IMG/VR virus record: IMGVR_UViG_3300009502_002963
Span: 1-38,780 of that record
Length of the DNA stretch: 38,780 nt
Direction: 5' to 3' (one strand)
Origin: a virus
Shown in pieces: positions 775-23,550 of the stretch. Under the pieces are notes generated by a model. It did not search any database and had not been told where the DNA came from. It saw only the letters and a program-made list of their open reading frames with translations. The position numbers and the translations under genes were made by a program. How positions within the stretch are numbered: position 1 is the stretch's first letter; each line of letters starts with the position of its first letter.

Positions 775-815
775 CGCCGCATCGGTCGAAACCATCACGG
801 CTTGAGACTTGGCAG

Positions 816-900
816 AATGTTTGAACAGCCGAGAGATGGCTTGAAATGGCTGGAAGTGGCCTGAAAACCGGGGGTTTTGAATTGGGGCTGTCCAAACATT
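816..900. promoter_or_regulatory. Candidate prophage left-end protein-binding region
   Basis: Between the cytochrome c gene and the portal gene lie two inverted copies of a 15-nt motif (14/15 match), at 816-830 and 886-900. The second reads GGCTGTCCAAACATT. Between them are three tandem decamers, ATGGCTTGAA, ATGGCTGGAA and GTGGCCTGAA (836-865). A third, 13-nt copy of the motif, CTGTCCAAACTTT, occurs at 38682-38694 at the other phage/host junction. A motif repeated at both ends is what transposase end-binding sites would look like, but the exact terminus (TG...CA) and the target duplication were not resolved. The decamers could also be a host promoter element for the cytochrome gene. Confidence 0.4.
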
Positions 901-942: not shown

Positions 943-2610
943 TCATTTTGTGGCCCCGGCGGTGGCTCCGTTGGCACCGTAAGCCGTGAGAGCTTCCTCG
1001 ATCAAAGCGACCTGGCGTCCAGGAGCCAGGTCGGCGAAAAACAACCGAATGCTGCGCTCCAGTTCCCTGGGCGATTTGCTCTCCAGGATGAGTTGCCGAA
1101 CCGGCGCGTAGGCTCCGCGGAACGCTCGCGCCAACCCCGCCGAGCCATTGCGGGCGATTTCATCGCCGGCCTTTTCTGCCACCGCGACGTGAGCCGGCAC
1201 ATCCGCAGTCAGCGCCGTCAAAGCAGCCGAGCCAAAAGGATTCCCGACCGGCGATGGCGTGGCCATGCGACGAACCTGCATCCCGAATTTTTCCGACAGA
1301 CCGGGCAACGCTTCATCCGTCGGTTCCAGTCCGGCGTCGCGCATGTTCTTGAGCAACTCACCGAGCGCCTTTTGCTCGGCGGGCGATACGGAACCAAAGA
1401 CCGCTTTGGGCACCGCGCCGCGCCGACCATTGATTCGGGCCAACTGCGCGAACAGTTGTTGCTTGAGCGTGCGGCCCAACACCGTGCTGTCCCACACGCG
1501 AAAGTCCTGGCGCACCGCCTCCTGCGCCGTCCCGACGCCGCTGTTCATTCCGCCACCAGTCTGCCCTTCAGAGGTTGCGGTCTGGCCGAGGATGATTTGC
1601 GCAATCTCCCTCTTGGCCGTGTCCCTGAAAACCTTGAACGCATCGCCCGACTGATTGGACGCCTGGATCAGTTGGAACGAAGTCTCCTTGCTGATGACCA
1701 AACCGCCAATGCGCAGGGAAAACTGAACCGCTCGCTGCGCAAGCCTGCGGCTTTCGTCGTCGCTCTGGTTGTATTGGATGACAGGGAACGGCATCCCAAA
1801 CCGATCCAGGAAGCGCGCCCAACCGTCCCGGTTCAGCGCCATGAATAACCACCAGAACAGCAGCGCCCGCATCGGGCCGCCCCAGTTGTCCGGCGTGCTC
1901 AGGAGATGGCCGCGGTGAATGATGTATCGTTCCGGGTCGGCTTCATGGCGCTGGCCGGTCAACGCGCCGTTGGCGTCCACGTCCCAGATCAGCATCCGGC
2001 CGGTGGTGTAGTCGAGCAAGTGATGCGGCACCGGCACGAGCGCGCGCAGTTCAAACCGCAACCCCGGCTTCGTGCTCGGACGAAAAACTTTCTCGGTCAG
2101 ACTGACCGGCCAGAGATGGCCGTCCATGATGGCGGCGAGGACGTTGAGCCAGGGGGTGAGATTTTCAAACTCCGCGGCAATCGGCGGCGGCGCGTCATAA
2201 CTATCAATCGCGTCCCTGATCATCTGCGCCGTATCCACGTCGTCGGGGTTGTTTTTATCCGGCGGCAAAATCGCCATCACGTCGCCGAGCACGGCCAGCT
2301 TGCGCGTCGAGAACAGAGTCTGAATGTAACCGTCGGACATCACCACGTCGCGGAATAAAGAAAACAGGTCGCGCACCGCGCCGCTCTCTGCCCCGCGCAA
2401 AATGGCGTGCAGGCGGTCCGCGTCCACCATGTGGCCGAGCGCGGGCGGCTCGTAGCGCGAGTTGACGATGGTCCAACGCGCGACGGGAACCGGCTGCGGT
2501 GCCGGTTCAACCTTGACCGTCGGATCGGTGGCCGTCGGCGCGGGCGCGGGCAATGCCAGTTGCGTCCGGGCCGGGTTCGTTGGAGATGTTGGGGATGATG
2601 TTTTAGACAT
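943..2610 (-). CDS. Portal protein, Mu gp29-like (DUF935)
   Basis: A 555-residue DUF935 protein, the portal through which DNA enters and leaves the capsid. Recognised by its order of conserved stretches: ESG-VRDLFSLFRDVV, a tryptophan/phenylalanine-rich core around LLFWWLFMALNRDGWARFLDRFG, and the segment ending QIILGQTATSEGQTGG. The N-terminal 50 residues are Pro/Ala/Thr-rich and probably disordered. The chosen ATG at 2610 has GAGGAA about 10 nt upstream and overlaps the stop of the terminase nuclease gene by 8 bp. The frame is open further upstream, but that stretch lies inside the nuclease gene. It is the last gene of the leftward late operon, and its stop is only about 43 bp from the candidate left-end motif. 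In Mu the portal gene is followed directly by gene F; here F is 18 kb away on the other strand. Confidence 0.9.
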   Translation of the reverse strand: MSKTSSPTSPTNPARTQLALPAPAPTATDPTVKVEPAPQPVPVARWTIVNSRYEPPALGHMVDADRLHAILRGAESGAVRDLFSLFRDVVMSDGYIQTLFSTRKLAVLGDVMAILPPDKNNPDDVDTAQMIRDAIDSYDAPPPIAAEFENLTPWLNVLAAIMDGHLWPVSLTEKVFRPSTKPGLRFELRALVPVPHHLLDYTTGRMLIWDVDANGALTGQRHEADPERYIIHRGHLLSTPDNWGGPMRALLFWWLFMALNRDGWARFLDRFGMPFPVIQYNQSDDESRRLAQRAVQFSLRIGGLVISKETSFQLIQASNQSGDAFKVFRDTAKREIAQIILGQTATSEGQTGGGMNSGVGTAQEAVRQDFRVWDSTVLGRTLKQQLFAQLARINGRRGAVPKAVFGSVSPAEQKALGELLKNMRDAGLEPTDEALPGLSEKFGMQVRRMATPSPVGNPFGSAALTALTADVPAHVAVAEKAGDEIARNGSAGLARAFRGAYAPVRQLILESKSPRELERSIRLFFADLAPGRQVALIEEALTAYGANGATAGATK

Positions 2611-3331
2611 AGAGTTTCGATTCCTCGCCGGACCCGTCGAGGCTGGTCCAGCCTTCGCGTTTCTTCGCCCAGGCAGCATCATCATCGCTGACTCGGCCAA
2701 GTGGTCCCGCCAGCACGGGATAAGCTTCGACGCGCTCGCCAATCGAAACGAGCGCCTTCAGGCTGGCACCGATGGCGCAAAAACAGTCAGCGTGGTTTCC
2801 CGCCTTATCCACCTCGGCCTCGAAGCCGCCCTTCTCGCGCCGCGTCTGGCGGATGTCGTCGCGCAGCCAGGTGGCGCTCGGCACCCACAGCTTGCCGTCG
2901 GACATGCTGTTGACGACAAGATTTCCGAGGTAGGTTTTTACCATCATCCTCTCGCCGCGATACAGGATGGACTCGCTCTCGATCACGAGTTCCACCGGCA
3001 GCACGCCCGACAGTTCCCTGGCCAGGTCGGCGGCAAAGAACCGCTCGCTGGTGGCCAGCACGCAAAGCTTTCTCGCCCGGTGGCCTGTCGACCGCACCAA
3101 CGCTTCGCGCAGCACGGCGCGCGTCACGTTGGGATTGTCGGTCTTGAATCGCACCACGGCCCGCACGATGAACGTGTCGCCGCGCCGCTCAGTGACGGCG
3201 ATGGCAGTCGGGTTCGACTTCTTTTTTGCCGTGGTCGCCGGATCGAGGCCGATGCCGATAGGACCGGTGCCAAGTAGTTCCTCCCAACCGGCCGGCCAGA
3301 CCTCTCCCGCGGTGATGCGTCGGTCCATCAT
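2603..3331 (-). CDS. Large terminase, nuclease half (Mu gp28 C-terminal domain)
   Basis: A 242-residue protein equivalent to the C-terminal RNase H-fold nuclease of the large terminase, which cuts phage DNA during packaging. The first acidic residue is Asp30 in GIGLDPATT and the last is probably Asp182 in NHADCFCA; Glu118/Glu120 lie between. There is no ATPase domain in this gene; it is in the separate gene at 3477-4550. The start MMDRR at 3331 overlaps the stop of the intervening 49-codon gene by 4 bp (ATGA), so translation is likely coupled. Mu gp28 is a single two-domain protein; here the break falls at the interdomain linker. Summed lengths (357 + 242) match a normal TerL. Confidence 0.85.
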   Translation of the reverse strand: MMDRRITAGEVWPAGWEELLGTGPIGIGLDPATTAKKKSNPTAIAVTERRGDTFIVRAVVRFKTDNPNVTRAVLREALVRSTGHRARKLCVLATSERFFAADLARELSGVLPVELVIESESILYRGERMMVKTYLGNLVVNSMSDGKLWVPSATWLRDDIRQTRREKGGFEAEVDKAGNHADCFCAIGASLKALVSIGERVEAYPVLAGPLGRVSDDDAAWAKKREGWTSLDGSGEESKLYV

Positions 3332-3477
3332 GCGCGCCTCCGATGCCACCAGACGCCAACCCACCAGCTACGCCACACCCGCGCCGAAAATTTCCAATAA
3401 ACAGGATAGTAAGGCCAAAACGAAATTCGCCCGTCGCAACATCCGTGGCCGGCGTAGAATTGGAAGTTTCCGATCAT
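3328..3477 (-). CDS. 49-residue protein between terminase halves
   Basis: Unrecognised. It starts MIGNFQFYAG and is very rich in aromatic residues (seven Trp and four Tyr in 49), with a paired Cys (CC) near residue 13 and an Arg-rich tail. Support for its being a real gene is its position: its ATG overlaps the stop of the ATPase gene (TGATG) and its stop overlaps the ATG of the nuclease gene (ATGA). It could be a small packaging factor, a membrane-active peptide, or simply a coupling ORF that carries ribosomes from one terminase half to the next. Confidence 0.55.
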   Translation of the reverse strand: MIGNFQFYAGHGCCDGRISFWPYYPVYWKFSARVWRSWWVGVWWHRRRA

Positions 3478-4550
3478 CACGGCACGATCTCCTCGGTGAT
3501 GGCGTTGCACTTGCCTTCGTTGCGGCCGAGGTCCATCGCGCGCTCGACGACCGAGAGCGGCACCGCGGCCATGCCGCTGCGTTTGAAGGCCAGCGCGAAG
3601 TTGCGGTCCCACGCGTCCTTGTCGAAGTAGAGCTGTCGGTCTTCTTCCGGCGTGATGACCGCTCCGGTGTCGGGGTGGTAGCACTTCAATCCCGCCGCCT
3701 GGCGGTCGAACGCATCCACGCGGTGAACCCAAATCTTCGAGGGCGAGAGATACCAGTTGCCTTTGGCGCGCACCGCGAACGATTCCTGCGGAGGGCAAAA
3801 CAGTTCCCACGAATAATGGGTGTCGTCGAGCGGCGAGGTTGAAGACCAGATGTATTGGAACTGCGGATTGTCCGACATGATCGGGTCAATGGATTCCTTG
3901 ACCTCTTTCAAGGCGTCAATCCGCGCCCACTCATCCACGAAGACGTGGCCGCCGTAACCGACCGCGCGCGGCGTTGGCGCGAGCACGAGCGTGCGGCTGC
4001 ACGTGGTGCGGTCGTGCCAGAGCCGCGTGACGAGTTTGTTTTGCTCGAAAATATCGCAGAGCGCGTCGAGGTCCACACCGTCGGCGTCGGACTCGAATTT
4101 CATCCCGCGCTTCGCCGCCTGGTCGCGCATCTTCCGCAGCAGCAATTGCCAGACGAACGCTTCTTTGCGGATGTATTCCTCGCCGAGCAGCAGCGACGCC
4201 GAGAGAAAGAACACGTCTACGCCGCGCGTCTCGGCCATCAGCCGGAACGCCTTCGCGCCGCCGGTCGTGGACTTGCGAGCGCGTCGGCACCAAAGCCAGC
4301 ATTGGCGGCGCGGCGTGTCGGTCCAGAAGACTTCGTTTTGGTAGGCGGTGAAGCTGTCGGCAACGATGGCCGATGGCTCCGCGCCAGGCGCAGTCGGCTG
4401 TGGCGTGCGATATGATCCCCACTGCGCTTTCTCATCCGCCGCAGCCTGCTCTGGAGGCACGCCGTAGGGTTCATCGGACGATGGGGATTTGAACGCGTGT
4501 TCGTCGAGAACCACGGAAGCGGATTTTCCGCGAAGTTTGGAGGCTTTCAT
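3477..4550 (-). CDS. Large terminase, ATPase half (Mu gp28 N-terminal domain)
   Basis: A 357-residue packaging ATPase. A degenerate Walker A of the terminase type (RRARKST, residues 89-95), Walker B HVFVDE (202-207) and a coupling motif SSTS (236-239) are visible. The protein stops after the ATPase core, before any nuclease residues. A strong ribosome site (GGGAGGAAAC) sits directly before the ATG at 4550. It lies 12 bp after the small terminase gene and overlaps the next small gene. Together with 2603-3331 it should form the packaging motor that docks on the portal. Confidence 0.88.
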   Translation of the reverse strand: MKASKLRGKSASVVLDEHAFKSPSSDEPYGVPPEQAAADEKAQWGSYRTPQPTAPGAEPSAIVADSFTAYQNEVFWTDTPRRQCWLWCRRARKSTTGGAKAFRLMAETRGVDVFFLSASLLLGEEYIRKEAFVWQLLLRKMRDQAAKRGMKFESDADGVDLDALCDIFEQNKLVTRLWHDRTTCSRTLVLAPTPRAVGYGGHVFVDEWARIDALKEVKESIDPIMSDNPQFQYIWSSTSPLDDTHYSWELFCPPQESFAVRAKGNWYLSPSKIWVHRVDAFDRQAAGLKCYHPDTGAVITPEEDRQLYFDKDAWDRNFALAFKRSGMAAVPLSVVERAMDLGRNEGKCNAITEEIVP

Positions 4551-4562
4551 GTTTCCTCCCGT

Positions 4563-5225
4563 CTATGCCACGCCGGCCATCGGCCCGGTTGGCGCGTCGG
4601 GACGCTTGCCGAACATGAGCCGGATCAGCTTGTCCATCTTGATCGGATGCGGGTCGCTGCTGTTGAGAATGTCCGCCAGTTGTTTAACGCCGATTTTCTC
4701 CACCGCCTCAGCCGCGTCCCACTGGAACTTCTGGACGTTCAATGTCACCGCGGCCTTGCGGTTTTCCTCGGCCTGCAACTGCACGACTTTCTCAACGAGC
4801 GAAAGCAAATCCTTGGGCCGGTCCGCGAGCAGTTCGCTGATGGCCGAGGGCGTCAGATGCTCGTCGAGCGCCGCGAGCAGCCGGCTGCCGGAGAGATTCG
4901 CCGCCGCGTCCGCGGGGCTTCCGCCGGTCTTGCGCGTGAGGTCGGCCGAGAACTCCACCAGCCCTTTGGTTTGGTCGAGTTCATCCTGGCGTTGGAGCCA
5001 TTCCTTGTAGCCGCCGTTGCGCCAGGCTGAAAGGTTTTGGTCGCTGACCGCTTCGGCGCGCCAGCGTTTCTTCAGGATCGCCTTGACGGCCGGCATCGCA
5101 TTGAGCCAGGGCAAAATCGTGGCGCTCGACTCGCCATCTCGAAGTCGCGCATTCAGTTCATCGCGGACCGTCTTCGGCATCCGGCCGATCTTGCCCTTGC
5201 GTGCGGTGGTGTCTGGCGCGCTCAT
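4563..5225 (-). CDS. Small terminase subunit, Mu gp27-like (DUF3486)
   Basis: A 220-residue DUF3486 protein, the family to which the DNA-recognition subunit of Mu-like terminases belongs. The N-terminus carries the characteristic KGKIGRMPKTVRDELN-R-RDGE pattern (about residues 10-33), followed by an HTH-like region and a helical, charged C-terminal half. Its ATG overlaps the stop of the small zinc protein gene by 4 bp. It precedes the two large-terminase genes, as in Mu, though the whole block is on the opposite strand to the structural genes. Confidence 0.88.
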   Translation of the reverse strand: MSAPDTTARKGKIGRMPKTVRDELNARLRDGESSATILPWLNAMPAVKAILKKRWRAEAVSDQNLSAWRNGGYKEWLQRQDELDQTKGLVEFSADLTRKTGGSPADAAANLSGSRLLAALDEHLTPSAISELLADRPKDLLSLVEKVVQLQAEENRKAAVTLNVQKFQWDAAEAVEKIGVKQLADILNSSDPHPIKMDKLIRLMFGKRPDAPTGPMAGVA

Positions 5226-5404
5226 AATGCCGGCTCAAACTCCTTCGACGTGAGATGCCATCCCTGGCAGGCGGGACAATAGTAGGCACGCAGTCGTTCC
5301 GGCCGGTTGGAGTGTCGCCTCAATGCTGCGTTCATCGCCGTCCGCGCGTCTTTCTTCGACGGGTAACGGTTCTTAGCACTGCACGTTTGGTGGGGGTTGC
5401 TCAT
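5222..5404 (-). CDS. Small zinc-ribbon-like phage protein
   Basis: A 60-residue basic protein starting MSNPHQTC. It ends with a CPACQGWHLTS motif, the CxxCxGWHLT signature of small phage proteins of unknown function that probably bind one zinc ion (with Cys8 or the His as further ligands). It overlaps both neighbours by 4 bp (ATGA on each side) within the lysis/terminase operon. Function unknown; DNA or RNA binding is plausible from the basic composition. Confidence 0.7.
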   Translation of the reverse strand: MSNPHQTCSAKNRYPSKKDARTAMNAALRRHSNRPERLRAYYCPACQGWHLTSKEFEPAL

Positions 5405-5631
5405 GCCAACCTGAGTTGACGCTCCAGTTCGGCCGTTTGTTCCTCTGCCGCAGTCAGCCATATCTCGGCCGCATCCATGTCTTCGCCGATCAGGGCGTCG
5501 AACACGTCCAGCATTCTAGCCAGCAGCTTACGGTCGTGCTTCAGCGCCGCGAGAGCGCGTTTCAGCCGTGTGCCGGTTGCCGACTTCTGACTTCTGACCT
5601 CTGACTTCTGATTTCTGGTTTCCGTTTTCAC
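5401..5631 (-). CDS. Small helical hypothetical protein
   Basis: About 76 residues. The GTG at 5631 overlaps the stop of the peptidase gene (GTGA) and its stop overlaps the next ATG, which supports it in spite of the rare start. The first 20 residues are encoded by the heptamer array at 5583-5617 (repeated QKSEVRS type) and are probably unstructured. The rest is a charged helical segment (LKRALAALKHDRKLLARML, then a Glu-rich tail). No family recognised. Confidence 0.5.
   Translation of the reverse strand: MKTETRNQKSEVRSQKSATGTRLKRALAALKHDRKLLARMLDVFDALIGEDMDAAEIWLTAAEEQTAELERQLRLA
5583..5617. repeat. Heptamer tandem array (ACTTCTG type)
   Basis: Five head-to-tail 7-bp units, ACTTCTG with one-base variants; on the minus strand they read CAGAAGT. 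The array lies inside the N-terminal coding part of the small gene at 5401-5631. It is one of about twenty arrays in this window with an exact 7-bp period. Confidence 0.85.
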
Positions 5632-6422
5632 GACACCAGTTGGATTTGCCAGAAGTCGCTCGCGAGATTCGGGTTGGCAGCGTAGGCGAACGGCATCGTG
5701 AAATAACCCTGCTGTCCCCACTTCACGCCCCAGGAGTTGCGAACCAACAGCCGCTGGCTCGGCAGATCGTAGCCGACCGCCAGCACCGCATGACCGCCAA
5801 GATTCGCCTCGTGCGGCTGCGGCAGATTCAACACGCCGGTCTGCGCCACGGCGTCGCCCTCGAAACCCGCATAGACCGTGAACCCGAACACAACCGGAAA
5901 ACCGGCGGCGAGGCACGACTGGATGGAGGCCGGGAACTGCGGCACGCGGGCGTAGTTCACGGCCTTGTGCTGCACCGCGTGGGCGTAGCACGGCGCTGGC
6001 GGCTTCACGGCAAACAGCGGCGGATTGTAAGGCCACTCGCTTTCCGGGCAATCGCCGTTCGTGGCCACGCTCTTGATGCCGTCGCGGATTTGCGCGCCGC
6101 AATCCGAGTGGATCGTGCCCTCCATCGCGCGCTCGTTGAAGTAAATGAACAGGCGCGACGGCATGAAGTTCGGCAGCTTCTGGCGCAACCGGTCGAACTC
6201 CAGCGCCGCGGCGATGGCGTTCGCTGTGCAGCTTCCGAGTTCCTCCTGGTCGTAAACTGCCGGCATGTTCGGCCCGCGCAGGTCCACGTGCGGCGGCAGC
6301 GCGGCCGGCGGCATGAAGGCCATGCAGAGCCGGTCGCGGTGGTCCGGCAGGTCGCGATGCCAGCCGTAACGACGGCCGAGGCGCGACTTGGAGGATAGGA
6401 GCGAAGGAGTGTTGGGGTTCAT
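5628..6422 (-). CDS. Papain-like (C1A) cysteine peptidase
   Basis: A 264-residue protein with all three elements of a C1A peptidase: nucleophile Cys65 in ELGSCTANA, His211 in NLGGHAVLAVGYD, and Asn229 in VRNSWGVKWG. There is no signal peptide or propeptide, so it would act in the cytoplasm unless released by a holin. It sits directly after the lipoprotein and holin-like genes, where Mu-like phages carry an endolysin, and no lysozyme, amidase or transglycosylase is found anywhere in the window. A lysis role is therefore inferred from context; virion protein processing is an alternative. Its ATG overlaps the lipoprotein stop by 4 bp. Confidence 0.85.
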   Translation of the reverse strand: MNPNTPSLLSSKSRLGRRYGWHRDLPDHRDRLCMAFMPPAALPPHVDLRGPNMPAVYDQEELGSCTANAIAAALEFDRLRQKLPNFMPSRLFIYFNERAMEGTIHSDCGAQIRDGIKSVATNGDCPESEWPYNPPLFAVKPPAPCYAHAVQHKAVNYARVPQFPASIQSCLAAGFPVVFGFTVYAGFEGDAVAQTGVLNLPQPHEANLGGHAVLAVGYDLPSQRLLVRNSWGVKWGQQGYFTMPFAYAANPNLASDFWQIQLVS

Positions 6423-6547
6423 GGATTAAAAATGGAGTTGTTGCTGTTGTTGACGATGGCTGGCTCGCCCGGCACGAGCCATGCGGAGCAACCCGTCAGC
6501 AAAAACGCCAGCGCCGCCACTGCGAGTCGCAACGCGAGGGATTTCAT
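6419..6547 (-). CDS. 42-residue lipoprotein (outer-membrane spanin candidate)
   Basis: Starts MKSLALRLAV, with a hydrophobic signal followed by the lipobox LLTGC (residues 16-20, lipidated Cys20) and a 22-residue Pro/Asn-rich mature part. This is the architecture of Rz1-type o-spanins, which link to an inner-membrane spanin and disrupt the outer membrane at lysis. Both ends overlap neighbours by 4 bp (ATGA). The membrane/coiled-coil protein at 7816-8319 is the possible partner. The small size and lack of a Cys-based dimer motif leave room for other roles. Confidence 0.7.
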   Translation of the reverse strand: MKSLALRLAVAALAFLLTGCSAWLVPGEPAIVNNSNNSIFNP

Positions 6548-6714
6548 GCTTGCGGCGGATCGGGCTGCGCATACTTGGTTTTCAAGTCTTCCCAATCCTG
6601 CGGGGTCGGACTCGGATTGCGGAAGATGGCGATGATGTCCTCCACGAACTGGGGACCGTATTGCATCATCGCGGGCGCGAGCGCCTGGATGATTTGAATG
6701 ATGACGAGTGGCAT
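6544..6714 (-). CDS. 56-residue hypothetical protein in lysis cassette
   Basis: Starts MPLVIIQIIQALAPAMMQYG. The N-terminal 30 residues are hydrophobic/amphipathic and the C-terminal half is polar, with PSPTPQDWEDL. AAAGGACACC just before the ATG at 6714 is a good ribosome site. Its stop overlaps the lipoprotein start. Location between a holin-like gene and a spanin-like gene suggests a lysis accessory role; no family recognised. Confidence 0.6.
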   Translation of the reverse strand: MPLVIIQIIQALAPAMMQYGPQFVEDIIAIFRNPSPTPQDWEDLKTKYAQPDPPQA

Positions 6715-6746
6715 GGTGTCCTTTCTTGGCCCGGCGTTGCGCAGGG

Positions 6747-7406
6747 CTACTGGGTTCCGTTGAGCTTTGCCGCCAGATCGGGCGGCAACAGGGTGGTGAC
6801 GAGCGTGACCAGGTCTTTTTCGCAAAGACCGACGACGTTCATCGCGGCCTGAAATGCGGAAGTGTTATTGGTGCCGTTTTGGGCTATTGCCGCCCCCGCG
6901 TCGGCTGCGAGATCGAACGCGGCAACATACTTGGCCCAACAGTCGCGCACTGTGGCAATGTCAGCGGCTTTCGCCTGGCCGCTGGCAGCGTAGGCTTTCC
7001 ACAGTTCATGGGCCGTGTTGGCCGTCGCGCCAATCGTGCCGAGCGCCCGGTATTCAATCACTTGCGCATTCTGCGAGCAGCCAGTCACGAACAGCGGCAG
7101 CATCAGCGCCATCAGGATCATCGGCAGCGCGCGGCCCAATGCCGTTTTGCGCCGCGCCTCTTGTTTAATGGCCATCTGTTCACTCGGCGCAAGCGTGTCC
7201 CACCATTGCTTGAGCGTGTGGGTTCGCGCCGCGTTCACGAGAGCGCAGACGAATCCGAGGATGACCAGCGCCTCGCCCACGAGTTGCATGGTGACGTTGA
7301 CCGCGTTGGTGCAGTGCGCCGCGTCGGTGTAGCCGAGCGTGACCGCGATGGTGCCGGCAATCGTCAAAGTGTGCCGGATGGCTGAGAGAACCTGCGTCGA
7401 GTTCAT
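6747..7406 (-). CDS. Holin-like protein fused to a lipobox-containing domain
   Basis: A 219-residue membrane protein. Residues 1-60 (VLSAIRHTLTIAGTIAVTLGY, then a second helix around LVGEALVILGFVCALVN) resemble small two-helix phage holins of the Pam3-gp28 type. Residues 94-109 form a third hydrophobic segment ending LFVTGC, a perfect lipobox with Cys110, followed by a soluble helical region to 219. A lipobox in the middle of a protein is unusual. Either this is a holin fused to a former lipoprotein, or Met78 is an internal start giving a separate lipoprotein; no strong ribosome site precedes Met78. GGAAG lies 6 nt before the first ATG. Holin function is inferred from topology and position. 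Confidence 0.6.
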   Translation of the reverse strand: MNSTQVLSAIRHTLTIAGTIAVTLGYTDAAHCTNAVNVTMQLVGEALVILGFVCALVNAARTHTLKQWWDTLAPSEQMAIKQEARRKTALGRALPMILMALMLPLFVTGCSQNAQVIEYRALGTIGATANTAHELWKAYAASGQAKAADIATVRDCWAKYVAAFDLAADAGAAIAQNGTNNTSAFQAAMNVVGLCEKDLVTLVTTLLPPDLAAKLNGTQ

Positions 7407-7430
7407 GGTGCTTCCTTTCGTTTTTTGTTT

Positions 7431-7498
7431 GCCGCTAATGACGCGAACAGGCGCGAATTTCGGTTTTCCAATTGGCGTCCATTCGCGTCATTGGCGGC
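7431..7498. repeat. Palindromic element (17-bp arms)
   Basis: The left arm GCCGCTAATGACGCGAA (7431-7447) pairs with 7482-7498 with one mismatch (16/17), around a 34-nt centre. It lies in the gap between two late genes. There is no T-run after it on the minus strand, so it is more likely a dispersed palindromic repeat or mRNA stabiliser than an intrinsic terminator. Confidence 0.75.
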
Positions 7499-7514
7499 TA
7501 TCTTTTCCCTGCGT

Positions 7515-7796
7515 TCATACAAGACTGTTCGCCTCGCAAAACTTCATCCCCGCCGCCGTGATAAACCAAAACGGCGGCAAGCCGGGCGACATCGCGGCGG
7601 CGCGCTCGGTCTGGCGCGGCTCGACGTTGCCTTCGCCACGCAGCAATTCGAGCGATGCGTCCACCTGGTTGGCGTCGCACTTCACGTCATCTTGCACAAT
7701 CTGGCAAAGGCGCGCGGCGGTCCGTCCGAGCGGCGTCACACGGTAGAGTTCGCGCAGCAGCGCGCAGCGAAGGTCGTAGAGTTGTTGGGGATTCAT
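7515..7796 (-). CDS. Hypothetical protein, winged-helix-like
   Basis: A 93-residue protein starting MNPQQLYDLR. The pattern of helix (LLRELYRVTPLGRTAARLCQIV), helix (NQVDASLELLRGEGNVEPRQ) and a final strand-like WFITAAGMKFCEANSLV resembles a small winged-helix fold, but no family was recognised. The frame is open upstream to 7910, into the spanin-like gene; the ATG at 7796 was preferred because AAGGGAA lies upstream and it avoids that overlap. Confidence 0.6.
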   Translation of the reverse strand: MNPQQLYDLRCALLRELYRVTPLGRTAARLCQIVQDDVKCDANQVDASLELLRGEGNVEPRQTERAAAMSPGLPPFWFITAAGMKFCEANSLV

Positions 7797-7815
7797 GCGC
7801 TGGTTTCCCTTGCCG

Positions 7816-8319
7816 TCAGTTTTTGATTCGTCCCGCCAGGTTGGCCAGCCCCTCGGCAACGTCGGATAGTTTCCTGCTCGTGGATTCGAGCCATTCACTT
7901 TGGTTTTCACTCCTCTCCGTCAGCTTCGAGATGTCCGTCTCGATCCGGGTGAGTTGGACGTGAAGTTTCTCGCGTGATGATTTGTTCGCCTCGTCTCGCC
8001 GGGTGGCATCTGCCTTGATCGCTTCAAGCTCGGCGTCGAGCTTCTTGTGGCGCGCGTCGCAGTCCCCGGCGTCAGCAAACTCCGGCGGAAAAGTGACCGA
8101 GCGCGGCTTCGGCTGGTTGCCCTCGCGCATCTTCCGCCCCTCGTTGATTGCGGCCAGCGTGTAATAGACGCCCGCCGCAATAGCGAAGAGAGCAACGATG
8201 ATCCACCCAATGGCCTGGTAGCTGTCGGGCAACGGCAGCGCCGCAACCAACTGTCCACTGCCCACTGCCCACTGCCCGCTGATTGCTGAAAGCTGATGGC
8301 TGAGTGCTGTCTCGAACAT
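7816..8319 (-). CDS. Membrane-anchored coiled-coil protein (inner spanin candidate)
   Basis: A 167-residue protein with one transmembrane helix (about residues 36-57, GWIIVALFAIAAGVYYTLA), then a charged region and a long coiled coil (about 90-165, heptad-rich ELEAIKADATRR to KLSDVAEGLANLAG). A membrane anchor plus periplasmic coiled coil is the form of Rz-type i-spanins. Residues 4-24 are encoded by the nine-unit heptamer array at 8248-8310, so the extreme N-terminus looks like repeat-derived addition. The ATG at 8319 is preferred because the 41-bp promoter-like element ends 30 nt before it, the same spacing as at the other late operon. It is the first gene of the leftward late operon. Confidence 0.65.
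   Translation of the reverse strand: MFETALSHQLSAISGQWAVGSGQLVAALPLPDSYQAIGWIIVALFAIAAGVYYTLAAINEGRKMREGNQPKPRSVTFPPEFADAGDCDARHKKLDAELEAIKADATRRDEANKSSREKLHVQLTRIETDISKLTERSENQSEWLESTSRKLSDVAEGLANLAGRIKN
8248..8310. repeat. Heptamer tandem array, nine units
   Basis: Nine consecutive 7-bp units that drift in sequence while keeping register: CAACTGT, CCACTGC (three times), CCGCTGA, TTGCTGA, AAGCTGA, TGGCTGA, GTGCTGT. The core CTG is fixed and the other positions vary. It is translated as the N-terminus of the spanin-like protein. It is the longest array in the window. Confidence 0.9.
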
Positions 8320-8349
8320 GCCCGCCACGCTACGCGCCCGCGTGGCGTG

Positions 8350-8390
8350 CCGTCATGCGATGGTGTCTATGCTTTCCACCCTTTCCAGAA
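8350..8390 (-). promoter_or_regulatory. Candidate late promoter/activator site, leftward copy
   Basis: A 41-bp element matching 23481-23521 in inverted orientation, 39/41 identical; the outer 32 bp (8359-8390) are identical. Read on the minus strand it contains TGGAAAGGG and TGGAAAGCA in tandem (9-bp direct repeat), then ATAGACACCATC. It ends 30 nt before the start codon of the leftward late operon; the other copy ends 29 nt before the rightward late operon. Equal spacing and orientation towards the genes argue for a shared promoter or activator-binding site, comparable in role to Mu C-dependent late promoters. Confidence 0.6.
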
Positions 8391-8544: not shown

Positions 8545-9147
8545 TCAGCGTGCGGTGGAAACCTGTCGATTTGAAAACGTATCCATCGGCATCTGGACCC
8601 GCCGCAGCTTCCATCCAAAATCCGCAAAACCAAAAAACAGATTTATCTCGCCGTCAGTCAGGGCAAAGACCGTCGGGGACACAAAGCCAGCCCATTCAAA
8701 TTTGTCGGTTTTGAGCAGGCGTTTCATCCTATCGTTCATGGCGTTTTCCTTTTCGGCCGCCGGTGAATCCCCCTTCATTATCTCGACGAAGCCAGACGGT
8801 GTAACATATTGATCTATCAGCGATCCAACGATCATGGGACCGAAGAAAAAAGCGGCTGCATGGGCGACACCGTCACTGACATCTTCGGTTTGCGGTTTGG
8901 ATTTCAGATCCGCCAACATCTGAGCTTTGAAATCCTCCTTCAAACCATCGCGCACTTTCGGGAAATCCACGAGCCAGTCAAGCCTTACAGTGTCGCGTTG
9001 TTCGACCGCCGCCTTCAGGGAATAGAGGACGAAGACGGCATCGCCAGCGTAGTAGAGCAGCGCGGCGGGGATAGCCCAATAAAACAGCCTCCGCGCAAAT
9101 GAGACGGACGGAGTTGAGGGGTCGCTGAGATATTTGCTCTGCCTCAT
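8545..9147 (-). CDS. DUF2939 membrane-anchored protein (lysogenic cargo candidate)
   Basis: A 200-residue protein with one N-terminal membrane helix (about residues 20-42) followed by the DUF2939 signature: LYSLKAAVEQRDTVRLD-LVDFPKVRDGLKEDF. The domain continues to a C-terminal FGFADFGWKLRRVQMP strand region. DUF2939 proteins are found in bacterial chromosomes and their function is unknown. It is co-directional with, and 14 bp behind, the repressor gene, so it is probably expressed in the lysogen. That position makes it a moron (lysogenic conversion) candidate rather than a phage growth gene. GGAGA lies about 11 nt before the ATG. Confidence 0.75.
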   Translation of the reverse strand: MRQSKYLSDPSTPSVSFARRLFYWAIPAALLYYAGDAVFVLYSLKAAVEQRDTVRLDWLVDFPKVRDGLKEDFKAQMLADLKSKPQTEDVSDGVAHAAAFFFGPMIVGSLIDQYVTPSGFVEIMKGDSPAAEKENAMNDRMKRLLKTDKFEWAGFVSPTVFALTDGEINLFFGFADFGWKLRRVQMPMDTFSNRQVSTAR

Positions 9148-9161
9148 CGTCGGGCGTTCTC

Positions 9162-9890
9162 CTACAGTTTCCTGAACACACCCACTACCGGATAGATGAA
9201 TCGGAAGTCGCTCAGGTTGAACTCCAGCGGCGGGTAATCCGGGTTGACACTCACAAGACGAACCTTAGTGCCATTCGGGCCAAAGCGGAAGAATTTTTTC
9301 AGAAAGACGCCGTGATCCTTGCGCGTGCGAGCGATTACGACGTTGCCGCTCTGAGCTTCCTTGTTTGGTGAAACGGTGACACGACTCCCCTCACTGATCA
9401 TTGGTTCCATCGAGTTGCCTTGCACGATCAAACCAAAAGCGTTTTCATCCCGACTCTCCGTTGGAATTTTCTCATCGAGAAAATTTGCCAGATCGTTGTA
9501 GTCCTTGGCGGCCCCGGCTGTCGCCCAGGACACAACAGGAATCCACCGCAGTTGCGGCATCGCTTCCAGCCGCACTTCGCCTTTCAAGCCTGCTGGCACG
9601 CCCAAAGCTTTCGCCATCTGCTCGTTATTAGGCGATGGCTCATCGTCCGGTGCTTCGGAAATATGCTTGGGGCCGGCTCCGAAGCGCAGCCACTTCCAGT
9701 TCAACTCTAAAGCGGCGCAAACGTCGCGCAGCAACCTCTCGCTAAAGGAACCTGCGCGCTCGATCTCATAGATTGGCTGGAGACTACAGCGCGCCTTCTT
9801 TCCAACATCAGCCAGCGTTAGTTTTCGATCTTCGCGTTCGCGGCGAAGGCGGTTAGCGATTTCAGTCTTGTCCCGATCTGGAATCTTCAC
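9162..9890 (-). CDS. CI/LexA-type phage repressor (S24 peptidase)
   Basis: A 242-residue repressor. The N-terminal helix-turn-helix (about residues 8-62, RLRREREDRKLTLADVGKKA) should bind operators in the adjacent divergent region. The C-terminal S24 domain has catalytic Ser160 in QGNSMEPM and Lys198 in GVFLKK. The probable self-cleavage bond is Ala125-Gly126 in SWATAGAA. Induction by RecA-stimulated autocleavage is therefore likely, unlike the Mu c repressor, which is not cleaved this way. The start is GTG at 9890 with GGAGGG five nt upstream. It maintains lysogeny by shutting off the early operon that begins at 9975. Confidence 0.9.
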   Translation of the reverse strand: MKIPDRDKTEIANRLRREREDRKLTLADVGKKARCSLQPIYEIERAGSFSERLLRDVCAALELNWKWLRFGAGPKHISEAPDDEPSPNNEQMAKALGVPAGLKGEVRLEAMPQLRWIPVVSWATAGAAKDYNDLANFLDEKIPTESRDENAFGLIVQGNSMEPMISEGSRVTVSPNKEAQSGNVVIARTRKDHGVFLKKFFRFGPNGTKVRLVSVNPDYPPLEFNLSDFRFIYPVVGVFRKL

Positions 9891-10907: not shown

Positions 10908-11158
10908 TTCCCAATTCCCCACTGCCCACTGGCAACTGCCCACTGCCCACTAGCGCGGCTCCGCTTCCGCTCTTTCTCCGGCAGCACCGCGCCGCCGCCG
11001 CGCTCTTCCGTTCCTGCGTCTGCGGTCATCCGCAATGGAAGCACACCGCCTTCAGCTACGGCTGCCGCGAATCCGGCTGCCACTGTGAATTTTTTGACGA
11101 GGCGCCCGTTGCGTCTCAGAAGTCAGAAGCCAGCAGTCAGAAGTCAGCAAGCCACTAA
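10904..11158 (+). CDS. Small Cys/His-cluster protein with repeat-encoded ends
   Basis: An 84-residue protein whose middle (about 40-65) holds a metal-binding-like cluster: CVCGHPQWKH, then C-x4-C-x-C ending CHCEFF. Both ends are encoded by heptamer arrays (10918-10952 gives the Pro/Leu-rich N-terminus; 11115-11149 gives the Gln-Lys-Ser C-terminus). The functional core is therefore only about 50 residues. It overlaps the preceding gene by 4 bp. The role is unknown; nucleic-acid or protein binding through zinc is plausible. Confidence 0.55.
   Translation: MIPNSPLPTGNCPLPTSAAPLPLFLRQHRAAAALFRSCVCGHPQWKHTAFSYGCRESGCHCEFFDEAPVASQKSEASSQKSASH
10918..10952. repeat. Heptamer tandem array (CCCACTG type)
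   Basis: Five 7-bp units, CCCACTG with variants GCAACTG and CCCACTA, beginning 14 nt after an ATG and translated as part of the N-terminus of the small Cys/His protein. Confidence 0.85.
11115..11149. repeat. Heptamer tandem array (GTCAGAA type)
   Basis: Five 7-bp units, CTCAGAA, GTCAGAA, GCCAGCA, GTCAGAA, GTCAGCA, at the 3' end of the preceding coding sequence and about 45 bp before the ParB-like gene. Confidence 0.85.
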
Positions 11159-11194: not shown

Positions 11195-12049
11195 ATGGAG
11201 CCAAGCAACAAGATCGTCATGATGAAGGTGTCGGAACTCAGCAATCATCCCGTTGCGGACCTGATTCCGATGCTGCCGGAAGATCACCCGAAATATAAAG
11301 CGCTGGTGGATAGTATTGGTGCCGACGGTGTCCAGGAGCCGTTGATTTGCGATCCGAAGGGGCGTGTCTCGAATGGACGCCACCGCCTGCGCGGAGCCAG
11401 AAACTTTCCGAGCATCGAAGAACTGCCGTGCATCGTGAAGCCGGAGGATCAGGTTGCGACCATCGCCATGCAGACGGCGCTGGCGCGGCGCGATTTCAAC
11501 GAGAGCCAGCGCGCCATCATGATCGCGGTGCTATTTCCCAAGACCGCTGCCGAGAGGAAAGCAGCCAGTCTGGCAAACCTCCGAAATGTCGGAAAAGGGT
11601 CAAAACCCCTGATTTCCTCGAACACTACGGAGTGTGGCAACAGCGTCACCATCAAGGAGTTCTCCGCGCAGCACGACGTTGGCCTAGCTTTCATGGAATA
11701 CGCGCTACGCGTCATGGGCCAACCGACCGAGCGCCGCGAACGGGCCATCAACGATGTCATGCAGCGGGGCATCGGCCTTGGCCGCGTGGTCGCCGGATGG
11801 GGCGGGAAGGATGCGGCGGACGCCGGCAAGACGAAGCCGATCAAGAACTACGGCAAACTGATTGGAGGCGCGTTCCTCAGCCTCACTCGGCATGGCTGTG
11901 GGTTCAACAAGATCGCCAAGGCCGGCATTGCCGGGGCGATCTTGCGCGATGCCGAGAAAATGCCAGCCAAACTTCCCGAACCGTTGGTCAAGGCCGTCAT
12001 GCGCGGTTGCAAGGCGCGTATCGAAGCTCTCAAGGAAGGCGCGCGATGA
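11195..12049 (+). CDS. ParB-like (ParB/Srx fold) protein
   Basis: A 284-residue protein with a ParB N-terminal-like domain (residues 8-92): KVSELSNHP, then LVDSIGADGVQEPL, and the nucleotide-binding signature GRVSNGRHRLRGAR. The remaining two thirds are helical and contain a Lys/Arg-rich DNA-binding-like part. ParB-fold proteins bind CTP and DNA, and in transposable phages such genes often sit just before the transposase. A role in transposition control or plasmid-like partition is inferred only. AAGGAG lies upstream of the ATG, and the stop overlaps the next ATG by 4 bp. Confidence 0.75.
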   Translation: MEPSNKIVMMKVSELSNHPVADLIPMLPEDHPKYKALVDSIGADGVQEPLICDPKGRVSNGRHRLRGARNFPSIEELPCIVKPEDQVATIAMQTALARRDFNESQRAIMIAVLFPKTAAERKAASLANLRNVGKGSKPLISSNTTECGNSVTIKEFSAQHDVGLAFMEYALRVMGQPTERRERAINDVMQRGIGLGRVVAGWGGKDAADAGKTKPIKNYGKLIGGAFLSLTRHGCGFNKIAKAGIAGAILRDAEKMPAKLPEPLVKAVMRGCKARIEALKEGAR

Positions 12050-12279
12050 ATCCCGGCCTGAATCCAAACGACGGGGACCGGGCCGAGTTTGTCCGCATGA
12101 TTGATGTGCGACACGGCGATCAACTCTACCTCTATAAAAAGTGGCAGACGGTGCGCAAGGTCCGCGTCTTCGCAACGGGGATTCATGCTTGGTTTGAAGG
12201 AATAAAAACGCATCGCCAATTCACCCACGGTCTTGTTGCCAGAAAACTTCCTGACGTGCCAACCGAACTGGCGCGATGA
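12046..12279 (+). CDS. Hypothetical protein upstream of transposase
   Basis: A 77-residue protein starting MNPGLNPNDG, with a beta-rich look (DQLYLYKKWQTVRKVRVFATGIHAWFEG). It overlaps the ParB-like gene and the transposase by 4 bp each, so the transposase is translationally coupled to it. No family recognised. Confidence 0.6.
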   Translation: MNPGLNPNDGDRAEFVRMIDVRHGDQLYLYKKWQTVRKVRVFATGIHAWFEGIKTHRQFTHGLVARKLPDVPTELAR

Positions 12280-14438
12280 ACGAATCAACAATCACTGTAG
12301 CGGCGGTCTGTGACCGCCGGTCCGGGAACGCGAGCAATAGAGCCGTGGGAGAGCCACGGACAAGGGAGTGCATCCCCATCATTGAACAGCCCGCGTGCGA
12401 ACCTCCCGCTGCCGACTCTAATCCCGGCATCCCGGATCGGCGGTCACAGACCGCCGCTACAGCCGCCGACGCGACCGATTCCCACTGCCCACTGCCCACT
12501 GCCCACTGCCAACTTTCCGTCTCTCCCTGGGCATCGTCGCGCGCGAAAGCGGTCCGCAAATGGCTCGCGCTTCAGGCGGAGGGATTGTCATCGGTCGCCG
12601 CCGCAAGAGAGGTCGGGCATCCGAGAATCACGCTGCGCAACTGGTCGCTCAAGCTCGTCGCGGGCGGCGAGCCGGGACTGGAGCGCGGCTACCACCGAAG
12701 CGGGAGGAAACAAAAGGTGACGCTCAACGCCGCGGAGAAAAAAACCGCCCGCAAGTTCGCGCTCAAGACCGAGAGCACGCCGATGGGCATCGAGTTGATG
12801 GCCGACTCGGAGGTGTGCCGGCCGGAGGTCCGCGAGGTCATCGCGGGCTACCGGCAGACCGGATGCTATCCGCGAAGCCTGATGCGCCAGGTGCGCGTGA
12901 CTTCCGAGGAAATGGCTGCGGCGCGGGGCGCGGAGGATTTGCGGTCGGTGGCATTCAGCGTGCGTCGCGGGATGTTCGGCTACGACGACGAAGGCGCATG
13001 GGTGCCGGTCAACAGCGGCGACATCGTGGAGTTCGACGACGTGTCCACGGACGTGCCGTTTTTCTGGCAGGATCCGGACGGCTATTGGCGCGTGGGCCGG
13101 CAGATTTTGATGGCGCGCGACGTGCGCAGCGGGAAGTGGCTCGGCGTTTATCCGGTCGCTCGTTTCGGGGACAGTTACCGCGGCGAGGACATTGCGCGGT
13201 TCATCGAATTGCTCGTGCGGCGTTGGGGGCGGTTCGGACGGTTGCGGCTGGAACGCGGTCGCTGGGAGAATAACGCGGTGGACGGCATCCGCGTGCACGC
13301 CGACGGCAGCCGTTGGGGCGGCATCTCCAGCGTGATTCGCGTGGACCACGTATTTGCTTCGACGGCCAAGGGCGGCATCGAATCGGCGTTCCGTCCGTTC
13401 CACAAGATCATGGGCGTCTATGGCGTGCGCATCGGCAAAACGCGCGGCGAATACGAGCAGGCCACCGACGACATGATGGCGGTCAACGCGCAAAAGGCCG
13501 ACCCGCGCAAGTGCGGCTTCATTCCCTGGGGCGAGGAACTCATCCACAAGCTCGTCAAGGGCTGCCAGTTTTTGAACCGGCGCGTGCGTCGCTGCGACGG
13601 GCTTCCGCCGGAAGCGCCCGATGTGACCTGGGCACGCGACATGGCTACCATCGGCGGCACGCTGCCGGCCGTGGGCGAACAGGATTTCTGGATGTTCAAG
13701 CCGACGATCCGCATGAAGAGCTTCGGCGTGCAGCTTCCCGGCCACGTCCAGGTGAAGGTCGAGACCTATCCCACGCCGTTCCGGTTCCACGCCGCGACGC
13801 AGGAGGTGCCGTTCATTGAGCGCGGCCATCGCATCATTGCGCGCTTCGATCCGCTGATGCCGGAGGCCGGCTGCGCGCTGTTCAACTTCGAGTCGCGGCC
13901 GATGAACCGCGAGAACTGGAAACGCTTCCAGTTCATCGGCGTCGCGCCGTGGGCGGCGGGCGAGCCGCAGTTCTCCGACTGGAGCGACTACGTTTCGCCG
14001 GCCATCGCCGCGCGCAAACTGCGCACCGCCCAGGTGCGCGCGAGTTTTGCGGCCATCGAGCCGGGCGGACGCGCCGCCGTCGTTCACCTGGAGTCCGACG
14101 GCCGCGGCAATGTGTTGCGCACGGAAGTCGGAGGTCGGAAGTCAGAAGTCAGAAGTCAGAAGCCAACAACGCTCCACGATCCACTTTCCGAGCGCGCCGC
14201 CGAGGGCAGGACCGCTAACGAGCGGGCATTACCCAATCGGGCAAATCCCATCGAAAGCGGCGCGCTCGATATTTCAACGCGGGGAACGGAAACCACTGCG
14301 GACGACTCGGCAGCCTCCCGGCTGCGTCCGCCTAATTCACCCGTTCCCCGCGGAACTTTCGACCGCGCTGCTGCGGCCGATTACATCGCCCGGCGCGAGG
14401 CCGAAGCCCGCGCGCGCGGTGAACTGATCGAAACGTAG
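12276..14438 (+). CDS. MuA-like DDE transposase
   Basis: A 720-residue transposase that would integrate and replicate the phage by transposition. Residues 89-150 hold an HTH-like DNA-binding region (AVRKWLALQAEGLSSVAAAREVGHPRITLRNW is recognisable in parts). The RNase H-fold core starts at about 245. The candidate catalytic triad is Asp254 (VEFDDVS), Glu326 (RLRLERGRWENN) and Glu369 (GGIESAFRPFH). Glu at the second position replaces the Asp of MuA. A beta-barrel-type domain follows to about 600. The first 80 residues are encoded by a 166-bp inverted-repeat element and a heptamer array, and residues 617-630 by another array, so the original N-terminus probably lay near residue 85. The nominal ATG overlaps the previous stop by 4 bp. 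Confidence 0.88.
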   Translation: MNESTITVAAVCDRRSGNASNRAVGEPRTRECIPIIEQPACEPPAADSNPGIPDRRSQTAATAADATDSHCPLPTAHCQLSVSPWASSRAKAVRKWLALQAEGLSSVAAAREVGHPRITLRNWSLKLVAGGEPGLERGYHRSGRKQKVTLNAAEKKTARKFALKTESTPMGIELMADSEVCRPEVREVIAGYRQTGCYPRSLMRQVRVTSEEMAAARGAEDLRSVAFSVRRGMFGYDDEGAWVPVNSGDIVEFDDVSTDVPFFWQDPDGYWRVGRQILMARDVRSGKWLGVYPVARFGDSYRGEDIARFIELLVRRWGRFGRLRLERGRWENNAVDGIRVHADGSRWGGISSVIRVDHVFASTAKGGIESAFRPFHKIMGVYGVRIGKTRGEYEQATDDMMAVNAQKADPRKCGFIPWGEELIHKLVKGCQFLNRRVRRCDGLPPEAPDVTWARDMATIGGTLPAVGEQDFWMFKPTIRMKSFGVQLPGHVQVKVETYPTPFRFHAATQEVPFIERGHRIIARFDPLMPEAGCALFNFESRPMNRENWKRFQFIGVAPWAAGEPQFSDWSDYVSPAIAARKLRTAQVRASFAAIEPGGRAAVVHLESDGRGNVLRTEVGGRKSEVRSQKPTTLHDPLSERAAEGRTANERALPNRANPIESGALDISTRGTETTADDSAASRLRPPNSPVPRGTFDRAAAADYIARREAEARARGELIET
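12296..12461. repeat. 166-bp MITE-like element with 32-bp terminal inverted repeats
   Basis: The left end 12296-12327 (TGTAGCGGCGGTCTGTGACC...) and right end 12430-12461 are inverted copies with 31/32 matches. The interior has no gene of its own. It lies inside the 5' part of the transposase gene and is read through in frame. Such TIR-only elements look like non-autonomous host repeats that moved into the prophage. No clear target duplication was seen. Confidence 0.8.
12481..12508. repeat. Heptamer tandem array (CCCACTG x4)
   Basis: Four identical CCCACTG units, followed by a decayed CCAACTT, directly before the DNA-binding region of the transposase and 19 bp after the MITE-like element. Confidence 0.9.
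14124..14165. repeat. Heptamer tandem array (GAAGTCA type) inside transposase gene
   Basis: Six 7-bp units: GAAGTCG, GAGGTCG, GAAGTCA three times, GAAGCCA. It is in frame in the transposase C-terminal region, adding a Lys-Ser-Glu-Val-Arg-Ser type stretch. Confidence 0.88.
14278..14352. repeat. Nested palindromic element in transposase 3' region
   Basis: A perfect 12-bp inverted pair (CGCGGGGAACGG at 14278-14289 with 14341-14352) encloses a second pair, GCGGAC (14298-14303) with GTCCGC (14326-14331), and an inner GCAGCC/GGCTGC stem. It looks like a mobile palindromic repeat that added about 25 codons to the transposase C-terminus. Confidence 0.7.
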
Positions 14439-14806: not shown

Positions 14807-15814
14807 ATGAACACGGAAACTGTAAACAGCGCGGCGGCGGAAGCGCAGCAAAAGGACCTGCGCTCGCTCGCTCAAACGATCCGCGACTACCAGAAGAAAC
14901 GCGGATGGAACGACACGCAGCTTTGCAAACGCTTCGGCGGCGTCGGCTCAACGAAAACTTTCGGGCGCATCCTGGCGGGCGACTTGAAGGAACTCGACCT
15001 TGAACGCTGGCTGCTCGAATACCGCACCGTCGTCAACCTCATCGAGGCCGAGGGCGCTGCCGACGACACCGACGAGGCGATCTTCGACGACCTCAGCACA
15101 TGCAGCCGGCTGCGCGTGGCGTTCCTGAAAATCATGAACGTCCACGGGAACAACCGGCTGATCATCATCGAGGGCGTCAGCGGCAGCGGCAAGACGAAGG
15201 CCGGACGGATGCTCGCGGCCAAATACGGCCGGCGCGTGCTCTTCGGCGAGGCCGACGAGACGTGGAAGAACCCGACCACAATGCTTGGCGGCATCCTGAA
15301 GATGCTCGGCAAAAAGGAGTTTGCGGGCGGCACCAACGAGCGCAAGGAACTGGCCATCTCCGAACTGAACCTTCGCCGCGTCTGCCTGTTCATTGACGAG
15401 ATGCACCACCTCGGTCCGGCGTCGCTGAACATGCTCAAAACACTGATCAACCAAACGCCCGGCGAGTTCATCGGCTCCGCGTTCAGCACGCTCTGGAAAC
15501 GCCTGGAGACGCAGGCTTACTTCGAGGCGCTGCAACTCACCCGCAACCGCATGGCCGAGCGGATCAACTTCGACACGCTGGACCTCCACGACGTGGAGAT
15601 GCTCGTGAAGCGGCGGCTCCGTTGGGAAAACGGCGAGGGTAAAAAGGCCGCGACGATCCTCATCGGCGGCGAGGGCAAAGGTCCCGCGACGCGGCTTGGT
15701 CATCTGGCGTTCGTGGACGCCGTGTGCCGCGAGGCCAAGGACATGGCCGACGGCGATCCCGTCACCATCGAAGTCTTCGGCGAGGCCGTCAAGAAAGTGG
15801 AGAAGACGCGATGA
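14807..15814 (+). CDS. MuB-like target-selection ATPase (AAA+)
   Basis: A 335-residue protein of the MuB/TniB-type AAA ATPases, which bind DNA, choose target sites and activate the transposase. The N-terminal HTH-like domain is at about residues 18-65 (RDYQKKRGWNDTQLCKRFGG). Walker A GVSGSGKT is at 123-130 and Walker B CLFIDEMHH at 193-201, followed by a sensor/arginine region (LQLTRNRMAERI). The order A then B matches Mu, with one small gene between. Its stop overlaps the next ATG by 4 bp. Confidence 0.88.
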   Translation: MNTETVNSAAAEAQQKDLRSLAQTIRDYQKKRGWNDTQLCKRFGGVGSTKTFGRILAGDLKELDLERWLLEYRTVVNLIEAEGAADDTDEAIFDDLSTCSRLRVAFLKIMNVHGNNRLIIIEGVSGSGKTKAGRMLAAKYGRRVLFGEADETWKNPTTMLGGILKMLGKKEFAGGTNERKELAISELNLRRVCLFIDEMHHLGPASLNMLKTLINQTPGEFIGSAFSTLWKRLETQAYFEALQLTRNRMAERINFDTLDLHDVEMLVKRRLRWENGEGKKAATILIGGEGKGPATRLGHLAFVDAVCREAKDMADGDPVTIEVFGEAVKKVEKTR

Positions 15815-17315: not shown

Positions 17316-17566
17316 AGAACACCAAGACGCCATCGGTTTTAAGAATGCCACAGATTTCCGTGACGCTGCGTTTTAATCCAGTCGAGATAGCCCATCTCAA
17401 TGGCGCGATGATGCTCGCGATGGCGACGCAGGGTTTTCTTCCAAAGGAGGCTTGCAAAGAAAATGCCGCGCGCCGCGCTCTTGGCCATCGCATCCACAAT
17501 GCCTCAGTGCGTTCAAAAGCGAAGCTGGACGCCTTCATTAAAAAGACTAGGGAGCAAGCGCGATGA
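17312..17566 (+). CDS. Hypothetical early protein
   Basis: An 84-residue basic protein. It has a strand-then-helix start resembling ribbon-helix-helix proteins (ISVTLRFNPVEIAHLNGAMM), then helical, Lys/Arg-rich segments. ATGA overlaps on both sides. A DNA-binding role is a guess from the pattern. Confidence 0.6.
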   Translation: MKNTKTPSVLRMPQISVTLRFNPVEIAHLNGAMMLAMATQGFLPKEACKENAARRALGHRIHNASVRSKAKLDAFIKKTREQAR

Positions 17567-22844: not shown

Positions 22845-22857
22845 AGCCGCAATCCTC

Positions 22858-23453: not shown

Positions 23454-23480
23454 TGGGCCAAAATCATTCCTGAATCTTTT

Positions 23481-23521: not shown

Positions 23522-23550
23522 GCGCGGCGTGTTCTGCAATCCTCGCGCCC

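Follow-up and report, generated by a model that had tools for sequence, protein, structure and literature searches.

The window analyzed here, positions 1 to 38,780 of IMG/VR virus record IMGVR_UViG_3300009502_002963 (the whole stretch of 38,780 nucleotides), carries a transposable, Mu-like prophage from a lineage of Verrucomicrobiota. A nearly identical, phage-specific element heads both late units of this phage: the leftward unit of lysis, terminase and portal genes and the rightward unit that begins with the homologue of Mu gene I. At each site, the element points with transcription. We consider it probable that the lysis unit has been inverted together with its own late promoter/activator site, equivalent to those of Mu Plys and PI, that the split late units are co-expressed, and that the elements have acted as flip points. 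The two elements and the genes that follow them are:

8345-8390, minus strand: left copy of the element, matching 23480-23525 on the opposite strand at 93% identity (46 bp)
7816-8319, minus strand: first gene of the leftward late unit; its ATG occupies 8317-8319 and follows the left element by 26 bp
23480-23525, plus strand: right copy of the element, inverted relative to 8345-8390 and located 25 bp upstream of gene I
23551-24864, plus strand: protease/scaffold protein, the Mu gene I homologue (Mu-like_Pro, expectation value (E) 8e-10)

The pairing extends well beyond this single phage. When the stretch before gene I was compared with the stretch before the terminase small subunit (TerS) unit in 42 phages, 23 reached the cut-off score of at least 18 in the orientation of transcription, as opposed to 2 of the 42 in the wrong orientation and none when each phage was matched against eight others. 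Two of the 23 were dropped, G413 as a coding duplication and G424 as low-complexity sequence, and the 21 pairs kept comprise eighteen from phages with the strand pattern of the window (Type I) and one each from the Type II, Type IV and collinear patterns described below. The pair points with transcription in four gene orders, including those of the collinear phage G431, of G433 with its flipped early core, and of G418, in which both late units lie on one strand. The element sequence itself varies from phage to phage, and a 9-bp tandem repeat recurs within it and is often kept (lag 9 scores 5.31 versus 3.53 for shuffled sequence, with no other lag from 5 to 15 standing out). Extra copies, found in a scan of 28 phages, lie outside mapped genes and in 13 of 13 cases on the strand of the nearest gene. 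A sigma-54 reading of the elements was dropped on spacing, as judged by eye.

The layout that separates the two late units is real, conserved and not an artefact. The block of portal, terminase and lysis genes (943-8319) is read leftward, toward the left phage end at base 803, with the repressor adjoining it; the genes for MuA/MuB, F, protease, capsid and tail are read rightward. The initial annotation had described an inverted lysis-terminase-portal block to the left of the repressor, running to the phage end, with both late units diverging from a central early region and F located 18 kb from the portal gene. The gene map and profile matches bear out the block, the strand map bears out the divergence, and the portal-to-F distance was measured as 18.2 kb; as the left end lies at 803, the portal stop codon is situated about 140 bp inside the phage. 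The consequence emphasized at the time, a change in the genes closest to each end, seems less informative than the 46-bp repeat, which had been missed. The remaining features of the left block and the repressor region are:

943-2742, minus strand: portal (Portal_Mu, E 3e-55; phrog_113, E 1e-55)
2603-3364, minus strand: terminase large subunit (TerL), nuclease part (Terminase_6C, E 4e-4, under the cut-off; aligns with the single-frame TerL of contig C16)
3477-4550, minus strand: TerL, ATPase part, homologous to the N-terminal part of the relatives' single-frame TerL and with no Pfam match of its own
4563-5225, minus strand: TerS (phrog_426, E 7e-4, a weak match; its position adjoining TerL is conserved in relatives)
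5628-6422, minus strand: papain-type peptidase, likely a lysis gene (Peptidase_C1, E 2e-13)
6747-7406, minus strand: holin (Phage_holin_10, E 6e-8), followed by two small open reading frames (ORFs) that reach the ATG at 8317-8319
8545-9147, minus strand: DUF2939 protein (E 2e-17)
9162-9890, minus strand: repressor with helix-turn-helix and S24 peptidase domains (phrog_4, E 3e-32; Peptidase_S24, E 3e-19)

TerL of the window thus consists of two ORFs (2603-4550, ATPase and nuclease), and it is similarly split in 23 of the 50 sequences with a mapped TerL, several with overlapping ends; a broken terminase was rejected as the first choice on these grounds. The split state requires at least 9 changes on the portal tree. 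Dispersed microrepeats of the CTGACTTCTGAC and CACTGCCCACTGCCC types also occur inside the phage, at 5577-5611, 8247-8290, 10919-10945 and 11116-11150.

The same plan is found in numerous relatives. Contig C16 of the same genome contains another, diverged prophage with a portal 40% identical to that of the window and the same gene order. In 16 of 16 IMG/VR relatives found by their portal, this gene lies near a record end and faces outward (record ends need not be phage ends). Fourteen of these 16 could be mapped, ten with the window plan and four with a variant, the other two being 9-kb fragments. A wider set of 60 viral loci and 33 genome loci, titled Verrucomicrobia, Kiritimatiellae and Lentisphaerae among others, contributed 27 further records. 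Sorted by strand pattern, the 57 mapped portal-bearing sequences comprise 35 of Type I, two of Type II plus three partial records, two collinear with Mu, one of Type IV, and 14 that are partial, other or KS10-like, seven of which were assigned by hand from partial maps for the tree.

These orders are most easily described as arrangements of three modules: M1 (lysis-TerS-TerL-portal), M2 (repressor-A-B-Gam-F-neck) and M3 (gene I-gpT-tail). Type I is -M1 +M2 +M3 and Type II is -M1 -M2 +M3, the latter found in G002 and G433 as well as in G004, G010 and G012, which are without the right part. G418 is -M1 -M3 +M2, and G409 and G423 are -M3 -M2 variants, with TerS/TerL elsewhere in G423; the -M3 orders come from single metagenome or isolate records. 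All mapped genes of G424 and G431 lie on one strand in Mu order, and G435 resembles KS10. Types I and II differ by an inversion of the stretch between the two elements, with breakpoints beside the elements: the distance from the neck stop codon to the right element is 4-124 bp in 18 of 23 Type I phages, and in Type II the same codon lies 25 bp (G002) or -7 bp (G433) from the left element, although the G002 pair is weak (15 bp, score 15.0).

On a portal tree of 63 rows, which was inferred quickly, has long branches (KS10, G433) and carries support values from the Shimodaira-Hasegawa-like approximate likelihood ratio test (SH-aLRT) only, the order labels require at least 9 changes. Sister groupings join Type II G002 and G004 with Type I G014 (SH-aLRT 99), G409 with G410 (100), and G423 with G425 (99). 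Type I is accordingly widespread, and the other orders arose from or beside it more than once. Derivation from the opposite-arm arrangement of the outgroup phages by a single inversion was rejected, because Gam, A and B follow one another differently along transcription in the two plans, with A placed by position and length in this comparison.

A survey of 387 genomes of the phylum detected the Mu portal in at least 119 and gpT in at least 56. Among the matches listed, 22 portal/gpT pairs, paired by hand, lie on one strand 1.0-4.5 kb apart, and four lie on opposite strands more than 18 kb apart (the window, C16, G301 and G115); the remaining portals have gpT on another contig or have none among the matches listed. 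The concern that relatives might show the standard order is therefore justified in part, given these 22 close pairs and the collinear G424 and G431, but most mapped relatives share the window plan. In one group of the phylum (f28/g93: G122, G125, G131, G145, G192 and G330), 6 of 6 genomes have portal and gpT on separate contigs, perhaps representing a split, domesticated element.

Based upon the paired elements and the conserved layout, the following mechanism can be proposed. The element would constitute a late promoter and include the site at which a phage-specific late activator binds, which would make it the analogue of Mu Plys and PI. The counterpart of the Mu "lys" late unit (lysis genes, TerS, TerL and portal, without F and the neck gene) would sit inverted at the left end, having moved with its own late promoter, and possession of its own element presumably leaves this unit free to face either way. 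Both halves of the head and packaging gene set would then be switched on together via the element copies, and recombination at the elements may repeatedly have flipped or moved whole units. The promoter function of the elements is putative. The activator might be encoded in the middle region, where the gene at 17563-18174 is the best conserved (42 of 45 phages) and 18372-18737, present in 25 of 45, encodes a protein that looks like a winged helix when read from its sequence and has no Pfam match. Both are candidates by position only. A late-activator role for 17563-18174 was considered and set aside, its fold search having given no match; one of 14 members matches GemA (E 0.088).

Several observations weigh against this interpretation. 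No Mor/C homologue was recognized among the early and middle ORFs scanned, and the product of 17563-18174 has no recognizable fold (no PDB or BFVD match at E <= 0.001). At the cut-off of 18, 19 of the 42 phages have no pair, KS10 (score 13) among them, and a control drawn from the early region of the same phages gives a less clear-cut result, with 5 of 40 sense stretches and 2 of 40 antisense ones at or above 18. In favor of the interpretation, the motif TAnnnT occurs 43-47 nt beyond the first repeat more often than expected (9 versus 2.2), but this is a single bin out of 12 and the arms are not mutually independent. Finally, terminator-like hairpins occur in 12 of 52 arms, which could mean leader control.

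The hairpins lead to a tentative alternative, in which the element is a leader attenuator or insulating terminator, with transcription starting upstream and a late antiterminator allowing it to pass. A sense-strand hairpin followed by a T-run is more frequent in these arms than the 1.4 expected or the 4 found antisense, and in G005, G008 and G415 both arms have one. We nevertheless regard this reading as unlikely, as the other 40 arms are devoid of a hairpin and the feature held in common is the 9-bp tandem repeat, often near the start codon and with the -10-like TAnnnT between. Another view would have the element serve primarily as a site of recombination through which the 15-kb early core stays invertible, which could account for the Type I/II inversion, for the proximity of the neck stop codon to the element in the two Type II phages, and for the number of order changes on the portal tree. 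It is rather improbable, considering that extra copies precede other genes on the coding strand, that collinear G431 carries its pair as a direct repeat, that no dedicated recombinase was noted in the part of the ORFs scanned, and that no near-identical isomer pair was seen. It is also doubtful that the rearrangement was purely modular, without shared late control, and that the element pairs are merely dispersed repeats. Dispersed short repeats do occur in these genomes, and 5 of the 40 early-region controls also match the R region, but the position, strand and within-phage pairing of the elements are very regular (23 of 42 versus 2 and 0) and the extra copies keep to the gene strand without exception. 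Lastly, an assembly join error near 8390, the position at which one copy of the inverted 46-bp repeat ends exactly, has a negligible probability, since the diverged C16 prophage and many separate, unrelated assemblies have the same order and 46 bp is shorter than ordinary short reads.

With paired late promoters still the favored reading, a more speculative extension can be entertained. There is a small chance that the 15-kb core (repressor, transposase, F and neck), being flanked by inverted late promoters, is itself invertible, in which case isomers might arise during growth or over short evolutionary time without harm to late expression, and late promoters would double as points of module shuffling.

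The assignment of this phage to the Mu-like group rests on its ends as well as its genes. The prophage spans 803 to 38707, and its ends are:

803-830, plus strand: left phage end (5'-TG...), which aligns with the reverse complement of the right end
38680-38707, plus strand: right phage end (...ACA-3'), after which the window and host contig C59 part

The left end was assigned by its similarity to the right end, while the right end could be placed exactly because the last 73 bases of the window (38708-38780) are unlike C59 and instead match C119:102425-102497. A long PAS-kinase ORF runs unbroken across this C119 site in the host genome, and the match points to transposition to another site or to an insertion mixture at the read level. 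The right end is thus joined to two host loci, and TG...CA ends with varied insertion sites are a trait of Mu-like phages. In C59, GGCT is present on both sides of the prophage and the fifth base differs, i.e. a 4-bp duplication where 5 or 6 bp are expected of Mu-like phages (5 bp in Mu). As this concerns one insertion only, it does not outweigh the other Mu-like features, which include a MuA-type DDE transposase, a MuB ATPase, and Mu-type portal, F, I, T and Gam proteins. The rightward genes are:

11195-12049, plus strand: ParB-like protein (phrog_4715, E 4e-8)
12276-14438, plus strand: MuA-type transposase (predicted model against the Mu transpososome 4fcy, Foldseek E 1.7e-13; no Pfam match)
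14807-15814, plus strand: MuB-type ATPase (phrog_296, E 4e-16; AAA_22)
16405-16998, plus strand: Gam (Phage_Mu_Gam, E 3e-12)
20896-22584, plus strand: MuF head protein (phrog_220, E 5e-32; Phage_Mu_F, E 2e-13)
22777-23367, plus strand: neck/virion morphogenesis protein (phrog_26, E 1e-11; Phage_tail_S)
25987-26934, plus strand: major head protein gpT (Mu-like_gpT, E 4e-82), after which the tail genes also run rightward
29215-30741, plus strand: tape measure protein (phrog_9483, E 2e-9)
37445-38551, plus strand: adenine DNA methyltransferase (MethyltransfD12, E 2e-13)

A transposase profile built from 16 relatives matches 1bcm (E 0.0014), and 10 of the 16 match a PHROG transposase family. The position of the second catalytic aspartate appears to be occupied by a glutamate in 16 of 16 aligned transposases (E326, motif ExGxW), its partners likely being D254/D255 and E369 as judged from their position in the fold. 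Matches of gpT to PF10124 come in the segment order 6-137, 223-288, 154-223, as they do in many gpT rows of the phylum, which reflects either a permutation relative to the Pfam model or a quirk of that model. The adenine methylase is encoded at the right end on the plus strand in the window, but beside the portal on the minus strand in C16 (81% identical), G002, G008, G009 and G014. A middle-region protein (19515-20228) is DUF5131/radical-SAM-like (E 5e-11), and an Rfam search of the window gave no match.

When compared with known systems, the divided plan is not new in kind, as Burkholderia phage KS10 (NC_011216) and a group of Leptospira prophages also part terminase and portal from other head genes. 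As far as our searches show, the novelty lies in the lineage, in where F and neck are placed, and in the paired elements; an open-access literature search, judged mostly from search listings, found no report of the divided plan in Verrucomicrobiota or of paired late elements. Like Mu, with its late units Plys, PI, PP and Pmom, the window phage has the same site upstream of its lys and I units (8345-8390 and 23480-23525), the places of Plys and PI. In Mu, both of these units lie on one strand, unlike in the window, and the site in the window phage is a phage-specific 9-bp direct repeat, with no C homologue found. G424 and G431 share with the window homologous MuA, MuB, Gam, F, neck and protease genes, and G431 has the element before both late units, despite all of its mapped genes being on one strand. 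Gene-order changes can be tied to these putative promoter sites, and the paired elements would allow late promoters of uncultured phages to be predicted from a single genome.

The transposable TG1 prophages of Leptospira, members of another phylum, resemble the window in the general plan of left and right arms that run in opposite directions; according to passages of the report describing them, TerS-TerL-portal is parted from the other structural genes and Mor/C were not found there either (PMC8705779). In KS10, the left end likewise carries a leftward group made up of portal, TerL, TerS, lysis genes and repressor, and the transposase, MuB, protease, head and tail genes are rightward, but its MuF is the leftmost gene of the left block, whereas F (20896-22584) and neck of the window lie on the right strand. 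KS10 also has a Mor-type late activator gene, none being recognized in the window phage, and no element pair was found in it. In passages of their 2008 report, its authors mapped a leftward block of F, portal, terminase and lysis genes to the left end, described the divided head module as unique and without a known reason, and speculated that a regulator might coordinate the halves (PMC2628397). A split of the KS10 kind now emerges as the commonest plan of a large phage lineage, with matching late-unit elements in half of the testable phages (21 of 42). The paired elements make the coordination of split late units testable, and a near-identical control sequence at both would explain the joint switching of the divided set.

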